Part shown: positions 29,468-36,660 of the stretch, one piece after another
How the letters are laid out: the number at the start of each line of letters is the position of its first letter
Position numbering within the stretch: the stretch's first letter is position 1
NCBI GenBank assembly: GCA_029821755.1
Contig: JALGSV010000028.1
Coordinates: forward strand, 1-47,648
Reading direction: 5' to 3'
Length of the DNA stretch: 47,648 bases
Source of the DNA: Candidatus Zipacnadum vermilionense
GTDB taxonomy: Bacteria > Armatimonadota > Zipacnadia > Zipacnadales > Zipacnadaceae
The notes under the pieces: generated by a model
Database searches by the model: none
What the model was told of the DNA's origin: nothing
What the model saw: only the letters and a program-made list of their open reading frames with translations
Program-made: the position numbers and the translations under genes

Positions 29468-31348
29468 ATGAAAAAGCGATCCTCCCTAATCGGGTACCTC
29501 CTCGTTCTCCCCGCCCTCGCGGTGTTTGTTTTCTATGTGGCTTACCCCCTGGTCTACACCGTCGTGCTGAGCGCTTATTCGTGGAGCCCGGTCAACCCGG
29601 TGAAGGTCTGGCGGGGGCTGGGGAATTACGCGGACCTGCTGGCCGACCCCAACTTCTACGCGGCGCTACGGAATAACGCTTACTTTGTCCTGCTGTCGTT
29701 GGCGATACAGTTGCCGCTGGCGCTGCTGTTGGCGGTGGCGCTGGGGTCGGCGGCGCGGCGGCACAAGCTGCTCCGAACGGTGTTCTTCTCACCCTTCGTG
29801 CTACCTATCGTCGCCGTGGGTCTGGTGTGGCAGCTCATCTACGACCCCAACCTGGGGGCGCTGAACGCGCTGCTGAAGGCGGTAGGCCACTCCGGTTGGG
29901 CCATCGGCTGGCTGGGGGAGGAGACGCCGGCGATCTTCGCCATCATCGCCGTGTCCTGCTGGCGGTTCGTCGGCTTCCACATGATGATCCTGCTGGCGGG
30001 CCTGCAGGCGATCCCTGAGGAGCTGTACGAGGCGGCCCGGCTGGATGGCGCAGGCCGGTGGGGGGTGTTCGTGCACATCACGCTGCCCTCCCTAAGGCGA
30101 CTGCTGCTGGTGGATGCGCTGTTGATCACGGCGGGGTCGGTGAAGATCTTCGACCTAGTGCAGGTCATGAGCGGGGGCGGGCCGGGGTATTCGTCGGATG
30201 TGCTGGCGACGTACATGTATCGCTCGGCCTTCACGAATGACCGGATGGGGTATGCCGCAGCGCTGGCGGTGGTGATGTTGGTGGTGACGCTGGGGCTGAC
30301 CGTGGCCTACCAGCGGGTTTCGGCGCAGGGCGGGACGGAGGGGCGGCCGGTGAGCTTCCGGAGCTGGCTGGCCTGGGGTGTGGCGCTGGCAGTGGTGGGA
30401 TTGGTGGGCGGGGCGCTGCTGCTGGGGCCGGCCAAGTGGGCGGGGGAGACGCTGCTGGCCCTAGGCGGGTGCGCGGCGGGGTTGTTGGTGCTGTGGCCCC
30501 TGTGCGCCGGGCTGGGGAAGGTATGGGACTGCCTACCGCGTAAGGCGGGGGAGGGGCTGAGGGATGGGCTGCTGGCGCTGGTGGGCGTGGCTTTCTTCCT
30601 GCCGATTGTATGGTCGCTGGTCAGTTCGGTCAAGCCGCAGAATGAGCTCCTGCTGTCGCCGTGGGCGCTGCCGCAGGAGTGGGCGTGGGGCAACTTCGCG
30701 GCGGCGCTGCACGGGGGGATAGGGCTGTACTTCCTTAACAGCGTCGGCCTGACTACGGTGGCGGTGCTGCTGATGCTGGCCCTGAGCCTGCCCGCGGCGT
30801 ATGCGCTGGGGCGGCTGCGGCTGCGCGGGGAGGCTCTCCTACTGGGTCTGATCCTGGGAGGCCTGCTGGTGCCCGTGCATGCGGCACTGTTGCCGCTTTA
30901 CCAGATCAACCAGGCCCTACATTTGCGGGAATACTGGGCAGTGCTGGGGCCCTATGTGGCCTTCTGCCTGCCGCTGTCGGTACTGCTGCTGCGGGCGTAC
31001 TTCCAGGGCCTGCCGGCGGAGCTGATCGAGGCGGCGCGGATGGACGGTGCGGGGCACCTGCGGTTGCTCTGGTCGATTCTCATGCCGGTGGCGCGTCCGG
31101 CCCTGGCGACGGTGGCGATTTTCCAGGCCTCCTGGGTATGGAACGAGCTGCCCATGGCGATGGTCTTCCTCCGCCAGAAGGCGCACATGACCCTGACTGT
31201 GGGCTTGCTGACCTTCCGCGGGGAGCATTCCACCGACTGGGCGGTGGTGATGGCGGGGGTCGTGATGGCGATGGTGCCGGTGCTAGCGCTGTATTTCGCC
31301 TTCCAGCGCCATGTGGTGAAAGGCCTGACGGCGGGCACGATAAAGTAG
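29468..31348 (+). CDS. single-chain fusion of MalF-type and MalG-type ABC sugar permeases
   Basis: A 626-residue protein containing both membrane subunits of a carbohydrate uptake ABC transporter. The first half (1-285) is MalF/UgpA-like: a SLIGYLLVLPALAVFVFY start and an EAA loop at 188-207 (EAARLDGAGRWGVFVHITLP). The second half (365-626) is MalG/UgpE-like with its own EAA loop at 521-540 (EAARMDGAGHLRLLWSILMP). The joining region, 286-364, holds two extra hydrophobic segments (about 300-320 and 327-348), which would set the second half in the correct orientation. In most bacteria these are two genes. There is no frameshift: the frame is open throughout with no obvious internal ribosome site. 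The partner ATPase is not in the window, so a shared MsmX/UgpC-type ATPase is presumed. The stop codon falls in the left end of the large palindromic element. Confidence 0.9.
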   Translation: MKKRSSLIGYLLVLPALAVFVFYVAYPLVYTVVLSAYSWSPVNPVKVWRGLGNYADLLADPNFYAALRNNAYFVLLSLAIQLPLALLLAVALGSAARRHKLLRTVFFSPFVLPIVAVGLVWQLIYDPNLGALNALLKAVGHSGWAIGWLGEETPAIFAIIAVSCWRFVGFHMMILLAGLQAIPEELYEAARLDGAGRWGVFVHITLPSLRRLLLVDALLITAGSVKIFDLVQVMSGGGPGYSSDVLATYMYRSAFTNDRMGYAAALAVVMLVVTLGLTVAYQRVSAQGGTEGRPVSFRSWLAWGVALAVVGLVGGALLLGPAKWAGETLLALGGCAAGLLVLWPLCAGLGKVWDCLPRKAGEGLRDGLLALVGVAFFLPIVWSLVSSVKPQNELLLSPWALPQEWAWGNFAAALHGGIGLYFLNSVGLTTVAVLLMLALSLPAAYALGRLRLRGEALLLGLILGGLLVPVHAALLPLYQINQALHLREYWAVLGPYVAFCLPLSVLLLRAYFQGLPAELIEAARMDGAGHLRLLWSILMPVARPALATVAIFQASWVWNELPMAMVFLRQKAHMTLTVGLLTFRGEHSTDWAVVMAGVVMAMVPVLALYFAFQRHVVKGLTAGTIK

Positions 31349-31457
31349 GGGGGCTGGGACCTCCGCGTGGGGCGGGCTTCCAGCCCGCCCTCCCACAGAC
31401 ATGCCGCCGCTCCCTTGGCGGGCTGGAAGCCCGCCCCACGCGGAGGTCCGCCCCTAC
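31345..31457. mobile_element. 113-bp nested inverted-repeat element (MITE-like) between permease and AMP-ligase genes
   Basis: GTAGGGG (31345-31351) and CCCCTAC (31451-31457) are the ends. Inside, 31357-31389 and 31417-31449 are perfect 33-bp inverted arms. Each arm contains its own 8-bp hairpin (GGCGGGCT-TCC-AGCCCGCC). The middle is 27 nt with no gene. The permease stop codon TAG overlaps the left end and the AMP-ligase ribosome site (AGGAGAG) directly follows the right end. No transposase or clear target duplication is visible. Confidence 0.85.
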
Positions 31458-31470
31458 AGGAGAGACTCTC

Positions 31471-32997
31471 ATGCGCTTACCTCACATCGCAGCGTTCTGG
31501 GACAATGCCGTCCTCCAGCAGCCGGCCTCGCTGTGCTGTGTGCATCGCGAGCGGGAGTGGAGCTTCGCCGAGGCGGACGCGGCGGTGGCGCGGCTGGCGG
31601 GATACCTGCGGGAGGAGGCGGGAGTGGCACGGGGCGACCGGGTGGCGTTGGCCATACCCAACTGCGCGGCGTTTCTGCTGGCTTATTGGGCGGTCCTGCG
31701 GCTGGGGGCGGTGGTGGTGCCGGTGAACTACCGGCTGGGGGTGGAGGAACTGGCGTTCGTGTTCGCGGATTCCGAGCCGGTCGTGGTGTTCCTGCATGAC
31801 AGCCTGCGGGAGAAGGTACTGCCGCCGCTGAAGGCCTCCGGGGTGACGATGAGAGTGCTGGCGGTGGGGGAGGAGGGGGATTCGCCGCAATGCGTCGACG
31901 AATATGCGGGTGCGGACGTGCCCGCGGCGTTGGAGATTGACCCGGAGGACTCGGCGATCATCCTGTATACCTCCGGCACCACCGGCCTGCCCAAGGGCGC
32001 GATGATGCGCCACGTGGACTTGGTCTTCAACGTGCACTGCGCAATCCTGGCGCATTCCTTCCGGCACGAGGATGTGCACCTGCTGGTCATCCCCTGCTTT
32101 GCGCCGACGACGGCGTACAGCCTGTTGCCGAGCTGCGCGTACCTGGCGAGCGCGGTGGTAATGGCGCCGGTGGCGCAGCCGGCGGAGCTGTGCGCGCTGG
32201 TGGACCGGTGGCGGTGCAGCACCTTCATTGGCGTACCGACGCTGTTCAACCTGTTCATGCACGACCCGGCGGTGCGGCGAGCGGACCTGTCGTCGCTCCG
32301 GTTAATCGCCTACTCCGGGTCGCCGATGCCGGCGGGGACGATTGCCCTGCTGCGGGAGCGCTTCCCGCATGTGGCGCTGCACAACTTCTTCGGGCTGACG
32401 GAGACCATCTCCATCACCCACGTCCTCCCCAGCGCCGACGCGGCGGCGCGGGCGGACTCCATTGGCAAGCTGCTGCCGGAGGTCTACGCGCGGATCGCAG
32501 ACGAGAACGGGCAGGACGTCCCGTCAGGGGAGGTAGGGGAGCTGCTGTTGCGGCGGGATTGTGTCATCCCCGGCTACTGGCGGCAGCCGGGGCGGCTGGA
32601 GGAGTCCGTCCGAGACGGCTGGTTCCACACCGGGGACCTGGCGCGACGCGATGAGCAGGGCTACTTCTACGTGCAGGGACGGAAGAAGGAGATGATAATC
32701 GTCGCCGGGCAGAACGTGTATGCGCTGGAGGTGGAGGCGGTGCTGCTGCGGCATTCGGGCGTGCGGGAATGCGCGGTGATCGGGGTCCCGGCGACGGGAG
32801 CCCGGGCGGCGCTGGGGGAGTTGGTGAAGGCCGTCGTCGTCCGCCAGCCCGGCGCGGAACTCACCGAGATCGAGATCAAGCGGCATTGCGCCGAAATCCT
32901 CCCCGGCTACAAGCGCCCGCAGGTGGTGGAGTTCCGGGAGGAGCTGCCCCGGAACGCGGCGGGGAAGGTACTGAAGAGATTGCTGAACGGCCACTGA
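31471..32997 (+). CDS. AMP-binding enzyme, acyl-CoA-synthetase-like
   Basis: A 508-residue adenylate-forming enzyme of normal length, with ATG 31471 after AGGAGAG. The phosphate-binding loop is YTSGTTGLPKGA at 166-177. Other blocks are YSGSPMP and NFFGLTET, the aspartate motif GWFHTGDLARRDEQGY with the following GRKKEMI hinge, and the C-terminal catalytic lysine in NAAGKVLKRLL (K499). Such enzymes activate a carboxylic acid with ATP and usually transfer it to CoA; the acid is unknown. No acyl-carrier protein or beta-oxidation gene is near. Its place behind the sugar transporter is separated by the large inverted repeat, so co-transcription is not assured. Confidence 0.9.
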   Translation: MRLPHIAAFWDNAVLQQPASLCCVHREREWSFAEADAAVARLAGYLREEAGVARGDRVALAIPNCAAFLLAYWAVLRLGAVVVPVNYRLGVEELAFVFADSEPVVVFLHDSLREKVLPPLKASGVTMRVLAVGEEGDSPQCVDEYAGADVPAALEIDPEDSAIILYTSGTTGLPKGAMMRHVDLVFNVHCAILAHSFRHEDVHLLVIPCFAPTTAYSLLPSCAYLASAVVMAPVAQPAELCALVDRWRCSTFIGVPTLFNLFMHDPAVRRADLSSLRLIAYSGSPMPAGTIALLRERFPHVALHNFFGLTETISITHVLPSADAAARADSIGKLLPEVYARIADENGQDVPSGEVGELLLRRDCVIPGYWRQPGRLEESVRDGWFHTGDLARRDEQGYFYVQGRKKEMIIVAGQNVYALEVEAVLLRHSGVRECAVIGVPATGARAALGELVKAVVVRQPGAELTEIEIKRHCAEILPGYKRPQVVEFREELPRNAAGKVLKRLLNGH

Positions 32998-36538: not shown

Positions 36539-36558
36539 GAGGGAGGTCTCCTTCGGGT

Positions 36559-36645
36559 GGCACAAGCTTACGAGCTTGTGCCGGCTATGGCGGTGGCTGC
36601 GGAGCCAGGCAGTTAGCTCGCGGAACGCAGGCTAGTAAGCCTGCG
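36559..36645. repeat. pair of strong hairpins between DUF1015 and aldo/keto reductase genes
   Basis: GGCACAAGCT (36559-36568) pairs with AGCTTGTGCC (36573-36582) over TACG. CGCAGGCT (36626-36633) pairs with AGCCTGCG (36638-36645) over AGTA. Both loops are four bases and both stems are perfect. They are 43 nt apart and lie wholly between the genes; the DUF1015 stop TAG is followed by GGGA, close to the element-end form seen elsewhere. Confidence 0.85.
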
Positions 36646-36660
36646 CTACCCGGGATCTCC

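Follow-up and report, generated by a model that had tools for sequence, protein, structure and literature searches.

REPs are short bacterial repeats with a simple signature, in which 0-2 nt separate GTAG or GTGG from a stem that is paired throughout over 7 bp or more and closed by a loop of 2-5 nt (PMC6006769), and the same GT(A/G)G head is described elsewhere (PMC3686654, PMC2817692). When two REPs in inverted orientation surround a spacer, the composite is known as a REPIN (Bertels and Rainey 2011, PMC3116915). The enzyme associated with these repeats is the RAYT, or REP-associated tyrosine transposase, a nuclease of the Y1/HUH type. Binding and cutting in vitro have been demonstrated for the enzymes of E. 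coli, Stenotrophomonas and Marinomonas (PMC8266576). Some REP dimers have further been described inside target palindromes, namely GTAG-15 of A. variabilis, GTAG-23 of T. roseum and CGTC-1 of H. neapolitanus (PMC3733652, section 7).

A perfect palindrome in the genome of Candidatus Zipacnadum vermilionense is very probably an element of this known kind, a REPIN served by a cognate RAYT. It lies in the window, the whole 47,648-nt stretch of contig JALGSV010000028.1 that was analysed, where it occupies a 122-nt gap between a permease gene and a ligase gene (Table 1). A sequence-only reading had described it as two perfect 33-bp arms, each containing an 8-bp hairpin, and both features were reproduced at the same coordinates. 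A repeat finder returned 31357-31389 and 31417-31449 as exact reverse complements (33 nt, 100% identity, 27-nt spacer). With spacers of up to 60 nt this pair exceeds in length every other perfect inverted repeat in the whole window, and every entry in the list of its top 12 inverted repeats is nested within 31357-31449. Both arms hold GGCGGGCT-TCC-AGCCCGCC or its complement, forming a stem of 8 bp closed by a 3-nt loop, and in both GTGG directly precedes the stem, just as the REP rule prescribes. Folding of the 113 nt yields -56.7 kcal/mol as single-stranded DNA (z -10.5) and -95.7 kcal/mol as RNA (z -10.1), neither being equalled by any of 200 shuffles, so the very stable RNA that had been envisaged is possible, as is a hairpin in single-stranded DNA.

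Table 1. Features of the palindrome and its neighbouring genes (positions in the window).
Feature	Position	Strand	Remarks
Upstream gene, ABC permease	29468-31348	+	626 aa; two BPD_transp_1 stretches (fused pair) in a single frame
GTAGGGG, left outer end	31345-31351	+	overlaps permease stop TAG 31346-31348
GGACC, left-arm extension	31357-31361		beyond the family core; complementary to GGTCC at 31445-31449
REPIN core, two inverted REPs and linker	31362-31444		model R1 match 81.7 bits, E 5.7e-12; this copy is one of the 33 from which R1 was built
Left REP	31367-31389	+	GTGG head 31367-31370, hairpin GGCGGGCT-TCC-AGCCCGCC 31371-31389
Linker between REPs	31390-31416		27 nt; a subset of copies have related linkers
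Right REP, inverted	31417-31439	-	GTGG head 31439-31436 (minus strand), same hairpin 31435-31417
GGTCC, right-arm extension	31445-31449		outside family core
CCCCTAC, right outer end	31451-31457	+	
Downstream gene, AMP-binding ligase	31471-32997	+	508 aa from its ATG

The repeat at 31357-31449 is real, but it is neither unique nor unexplained. A BLAST search of the 113 bp against its own assembly (4.39 Mb in 115 contigs) gave 80 matches, many of which represent both strands of one palindromic place. Forty copies, taken from the BLAST places and the RAYT neighbourhood described below, were examined, and two recognisable arms are retained in 33 of them; these make up the alignment A1, from which L019, L031, L041, L044, L045, L048 and L049, where the script saw no two arms, were excluded. 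The family consensus is TCCGCGTGG-hairpin ... hairpin-CCACGCGGA. In the aligned unit a linker of some 20-27 nt joins TCCGC-GTGG-hairpin to an inverted hairpin-CCAC-GCGGA, and its equivalent in the window is 31362-31444. Loops are 3-4 nt long in the other copies and 3 nt in this one. R1, a covariance model of the unit, finds at least 150 matches at no fewer than 86 distinct places on 34 contigs of the genome. The search for further copies that the sequence-only reading had proposed therefore returned a dispersed family rather than a unique sequence.

Occurrence in many copies per genome is typical of REPs, and the inverted pairing of two REPs across a short spacer, together with the computed hairpin folds, is that of REPINs; the family is probably a mobile DNA repeat. 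With the REPINs of Bertels and Rainey (PMC3116915) it shares inverted REPs, a short spacer, a whole-element hairpin, an extragenic location and a multicopy state, as well as RAYT proximity and compensatory changes. Its sequence and its bacterial host are different, however, and here perfect 8-bp palindromes sit directly at the GTGG head, which is preceded by a conserved 5' extension, TCCGC. Since the window is a single contig of a 115-contig assembly, a false palindrome created by hairpin chimeras or mis-joining might be considered. Its probability is negligible, given that there are dozens of copies, each with its own flanks and linkers, that the reading frames on both sides are intact, and that the arms differ from each other in 24 of the 33 copies.

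The site itself has a counterpart that lacks the element. In the sister species (G001), the orthologous permease, also a single frame (624 aa), and the orthologous ligase are separated by 19 nt that contain no element, compared to 122 nt here, in a comparison of one gene pair whose flanks are only 72-80% identical. The permease C-terminus, IK followed by the stop, is the same in both species, and on the other side of the element an SD-like AGGAG at 31458-31462 precedes the ligase. The sequence-only reading had advised looking for empty sites, and this gene pair is a candidate for one, within the limits of that flank identity. In G016, G018 and G019 the permease and ligase matches lie at separate places, with other sequence following the permease, so these genomes do not polarise gain against loss at the site. 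For a multicopy element, gain is the simpler reading. The earlier suggestion of an insertion agrees with the many places at which the element occurs and with the site that lacks it: the palindrome behaves as an inserted element, and mobility itself we infer.

Gene context was counted for 60 of the at least 86 places (two of the other 26 are close to a counted copy). Fifty copies are intergenic, one is partial and nine fall inside a predicted gene, as assigned by a crude Markov gene finder that called 83% of sequence coding, favoured the longest start and did not call the window's ligase; this is the extragenic placement typical of REPs. Among the gaps of the 49 intergenic copies that have a predicted gene on each side, 33 are co-directional, 14 convergent and 2 divergent, and divergent gaps are under-used (2/49 versus 15/91 for the remaining 20-400-nt gaps of these loci and of the window; Fisher p 0.033). 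This bias, along with the very stable RNA fold, would suit a locally selected RNA device, be it a terminator, an attenuator or an mRNA-stabilising hairpin between permease and ligase. Such a device is nevertheless improbable. A scan of 31200-31600 found no Rho-independent terminator, defined as a GC-rich stem followed by a T run, and no sigma-70 promoter. No Rfam family reached its gathering score, the best match scoring 45.9 against 168 bits, and the sub-threshold matches are mostly of microRNA type, to a long hairpin. The sister species does without the element at this site, and the same sequence adjoins many other genes. A secondary effect of the element on expression is possible.

Which of the two nested structures has been kept can be read from the copies themselves. 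When each arm is paired with itself across the 33 copies, 98.1% of cells are paired and 16 are double-change cells, a value reached by none of 500 shuffles, although most of this covariation comes from one basal pair (G-C to C-G) and shared descent of the copies inflates it. Pairing of arm to arm over the same columns gives 91.3% paired cells and no double-change cells, and all 500 shuffles score at least as high. In 18 of the 33 copies the arms have unlike basal pairs, each usually intact inside its own hairpin. Because pairing is preserved at the level of the hairpin and not from arm to arm, the small hairpins rather than the long palindrome would seem, from the aligned copies, to be what selection or the transposase reads. 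A long cruciform had been raised as an option for this locus; it is not supported as the selected structure by the same measure, as the long arm-to-arm pairing carries no compensatory changes among the 33 copies.

The perfection of the arms had been taken to imply recent insertion or maintenance by selection or gene conversion, but perfect arms turn out to be ordinary in this family. They occur in 9 of the 33 copies, and the exact hairpin pair of the window occurs in 8 of the 33, the window copy included, so that perfect arms reflect a common subfamily. Arms of the same copy are slightly more alike than arms of different copies (2.36 versus 2.82 edits; permutation p 0.010), which leaves some room for local conversion or subfamily descent. 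Gene conversion as a necessary cause of perfect arms was considered and rejected, given that this excess likeness is slight and subfamily descent can explain it.

A candidate enzyme for the family was found among five Y1_Tnp matches in the same genome. An intact Y1_Tnp-like gene of 167 aa, coding for a transposase of IS200 type, at L012:1315-1818 (= G000:C71:182680-183180) lies between two REPIN copies that are 94% identical to each other (L012:1229-1307 and 1842-1920). It starts 7 nt past the upstream REPIN and ends 23 nt before the downstream one, being flanked by inverted copies of the same REP as expected of a REPIN/RAYT pair. Its product carries the motifs MPDHVH, WQ and YILDNP and scores 22.3 bits against Pfam Y1_Tnp, just below the whole-protein cut-off of 23. 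In a PDB search, the sole match at E up to 0.1 was 4er8 (TnpArep; E 7.7e-6), which we take to be the E. coli TnpA-REP. The alignment places DHVH over EHMH and Tyr142 (AYILDNP) over chain position 115 (DYIYINP), presumably the catalytic tyrosine Y115 of 4er8. A RAYT is a Y1/HUH nuclease with an HUH motif and a catalytic tyrosine, both of which have counterparts in this alignment, and we infer that this gene is the likely cognate RAYT of the REPIN family.

The presence of a Y1/HUH gene flanked by the family also bears on another origin, that of a MITE belonging to a classical (DDE) insertion sequence and moved via terminal inverted repeats with target-site duplication. A MITE would likewise be short, multicopy, non-coding and built of inverted repeats. 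Yet each arm here is a hairpin in its own right behind a GTGG head, like a REP, and the repeat finder reported no direct repeat flanking the window copy within 31200-31600, very short duplications being outside its scope. A MITE is accordingly a very improbable description of the family.

The four other Y1 genes have surroundings of their own. That at L051:1992-2537 has its own, different inverted repeats, CGGTAGCACAGGCTTCCAAGCCTGTG, on both sides, that at L051:120-656 has yet other palindromes on both sides, and the one at L009 has unrelated short inverted repeats nearby; no flanking inverted repeats were found at the gene in L010. Just upstream of the gene at L051:120-656 there is a tandem repeat with a period of 39 and 3 copies (L051:650-783). 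Further REP-like hairpins, an inverted pair belonging to a different class, lie at 36557-36649 of the window (GTGGCACAAGCTTACGAGCTTGTG on the plus strand, GTAGCGCAGGCTTACTAGCCTGCG on the minus strand) and resemble the repeats beside the gene at L051:1992-2537.

Comparable arrangements are described for Stenotrophomonas and fluorescent pseudomonads (PMC2817692, PMC3686654). As in the Stenotrophomonas REP/RAYT systems, GT(A/G)G lies directly beside a perfect palindrome of 8-9 bp, and both groups share a RAYT located between inverted REPs and the presence in one genome of several RAYTs, each paired with a REP of its own. In contrast to those systems, whole REPINs flank the RAYT here, and the likeness is drawn from the arrangement. 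By motif only, the predicted protein appears nearest to subclass 2.7 of TnpA-Y1 (PMC6006769). It shares the pattern [ND]HVH / WQ / YI[LR][NQ]NP and flanking canonical GT[AG]G REPs, but has YILDNP instead, and its REPs are short rather than long.

The GTAGGGG and CCCCTAC ends are a separate matter. The sequence-only reading had named them as bounds of the palindrome, and they are indeed found there and recur at some other copies, yet they lie outside the conserved core 31362-31444. An outward CCCCTAC occurs within 60 nt of 10 of the 33 cores, and the tag is present on both sides in 3 of the 33. Neither flank has an outward CCCCTAC within 60 nt at the other 23 cores, which led us to reject the pair as the element's own ends. 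A larger unit bounded by TTGTGTTCAG was likewise rejected, as flanks of this kind accompany a minority of copies, with 29 matches (at most 2 mismatches) versus 15 for a reversed-pattern control. On the left side chance is possible, because GTAGGGG overlaps the permease stop (AAG TAG) and the homologous permease in G018 (L086) ends in a similar AAGTAGGGGGG stop context; the left GTAGGGG may be one half of a target palindrome or else the permease's own stop context.

GTAGGGG/CCCCTAC is perhaps a target palindrome. Eight exact GTAGGGGC-N6-36-GCCCCTAC palindromes exist in the genome, all unoccupied and with too little room for a REPIN. Around the 33 cores, up to a distance of 60 nt, CCCCTAC is seen 13 times in the outward and never in the inward orientation, with 5 occurrences in the 12,540 nt further out. 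Together these would fit a two-layer system in which the RAYT of this lineage would preferentially steer its REPINs into or next to GTAGGGGC...GCCCCTAC palindromes that serve as intergenic landing pads, a tentative and rather doubtful proposal at this stage. The REP dimers of PMC3733652 are similar in that doublets lie inside a second, outer palindrome; here the outer palindrome is GTAGGGGC...GCCCCTAC-like and, unlike theirs, is seldom tagged on both sides, as counted above. Among the papers listed by a literature search for the string GTAGGGGC, none is related by title. At about 2928-2972 the window also carries a GGCGGATGTT...AACATCCGCCCCTAC palindrome, which is like the GTAGGGGC palindromes of the genome.

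The association between RAYT homologues and hairpins extends to relatives of this organism. For 35 RAYT-homologue loci, 32 in relatives and 3 in the same genome and mostly chosen as the strongest matches, GT[AG]G followed by a perfect 8-bp hairpin was sought within 300 nt, with near and far controls drawn from the same loci. Such hairpins are present at 21 of the 35 loci, at 13 of them on both sides, where shuffled flanks would lead one to expect 0.12 loci. Their density is 3.48 per kb near the homologues and 0.10 per kb at distances above 500 nt. The remaining 14 loci have no GT[AG]G 8-bp hairpin within 300 nt, one of them, L081, having no upstream sequence. From one locus to another the hairpin sequence is mostly different. 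At one locus (L071, G017:C141), the RAYT homologue is embedded in alternating arrays of GTGGGGCGGCCATTCGTGGCCGCC and inverted GTGGGGCGGGCATTCTTGCCCGCC that are reminiscent of BIMEs.

At the level of genomes, a RAYT match is found in all 19 genomes with an R1 match versus 12 of the 22 without one (one-sided Fisher 0.0006, treating the 41 genomes as independent). The sister species has 43 R1 matches (both strands counted) to diverged REPINs, which keep the TCCGCGT(A/G)GG lead with changed hairpins (L105). Its best RAYT, in an assembly that is 79% complete, is only 39% identical and is accompanied by a different REP sequence. G002, a member of the same genus whose assembly is 90% complete, has no R1 match. 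Four named relatives of the RAYT were found, all cyanobacterial and 35-39% identical.

From these observations a mechanism can be sketched, in which the REPIN would be a non-autonomous element spread by its cognate RAYT. In single-stranded phases, during replication or otherwise, each arm would fold into its own small hairpin instead of a long cruciform. The RAYT may recognise the GT(A/G)G head next to the hairpin base, cut nearby through a 5'-phosphotyrosine link and move the doublet elsewhere, mostly between genes, cleavage and mobility being attributed to it by analogy with the enzymes of other bacteria. Once inserted, a REPIN may fold in mRNA and alter the decay or coupling of the downstream gene as a by-product, and an effect of this kind on the permease-ligase mRNA is possible.

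Taken together, a puzzling perfect palindrome can be placed in a defined class of mobile repeats, together with its probable transposase. A long and perfect palindrome need not imply a cruciform function or gene conversion. The base-pair change that is kept within each hairpin, and not between the arms, offers an instance for RAYT-hairpin co-evolution, and the RAYT homologues of the order, with their visibly different adjoining hairpins, would allow a test of it.
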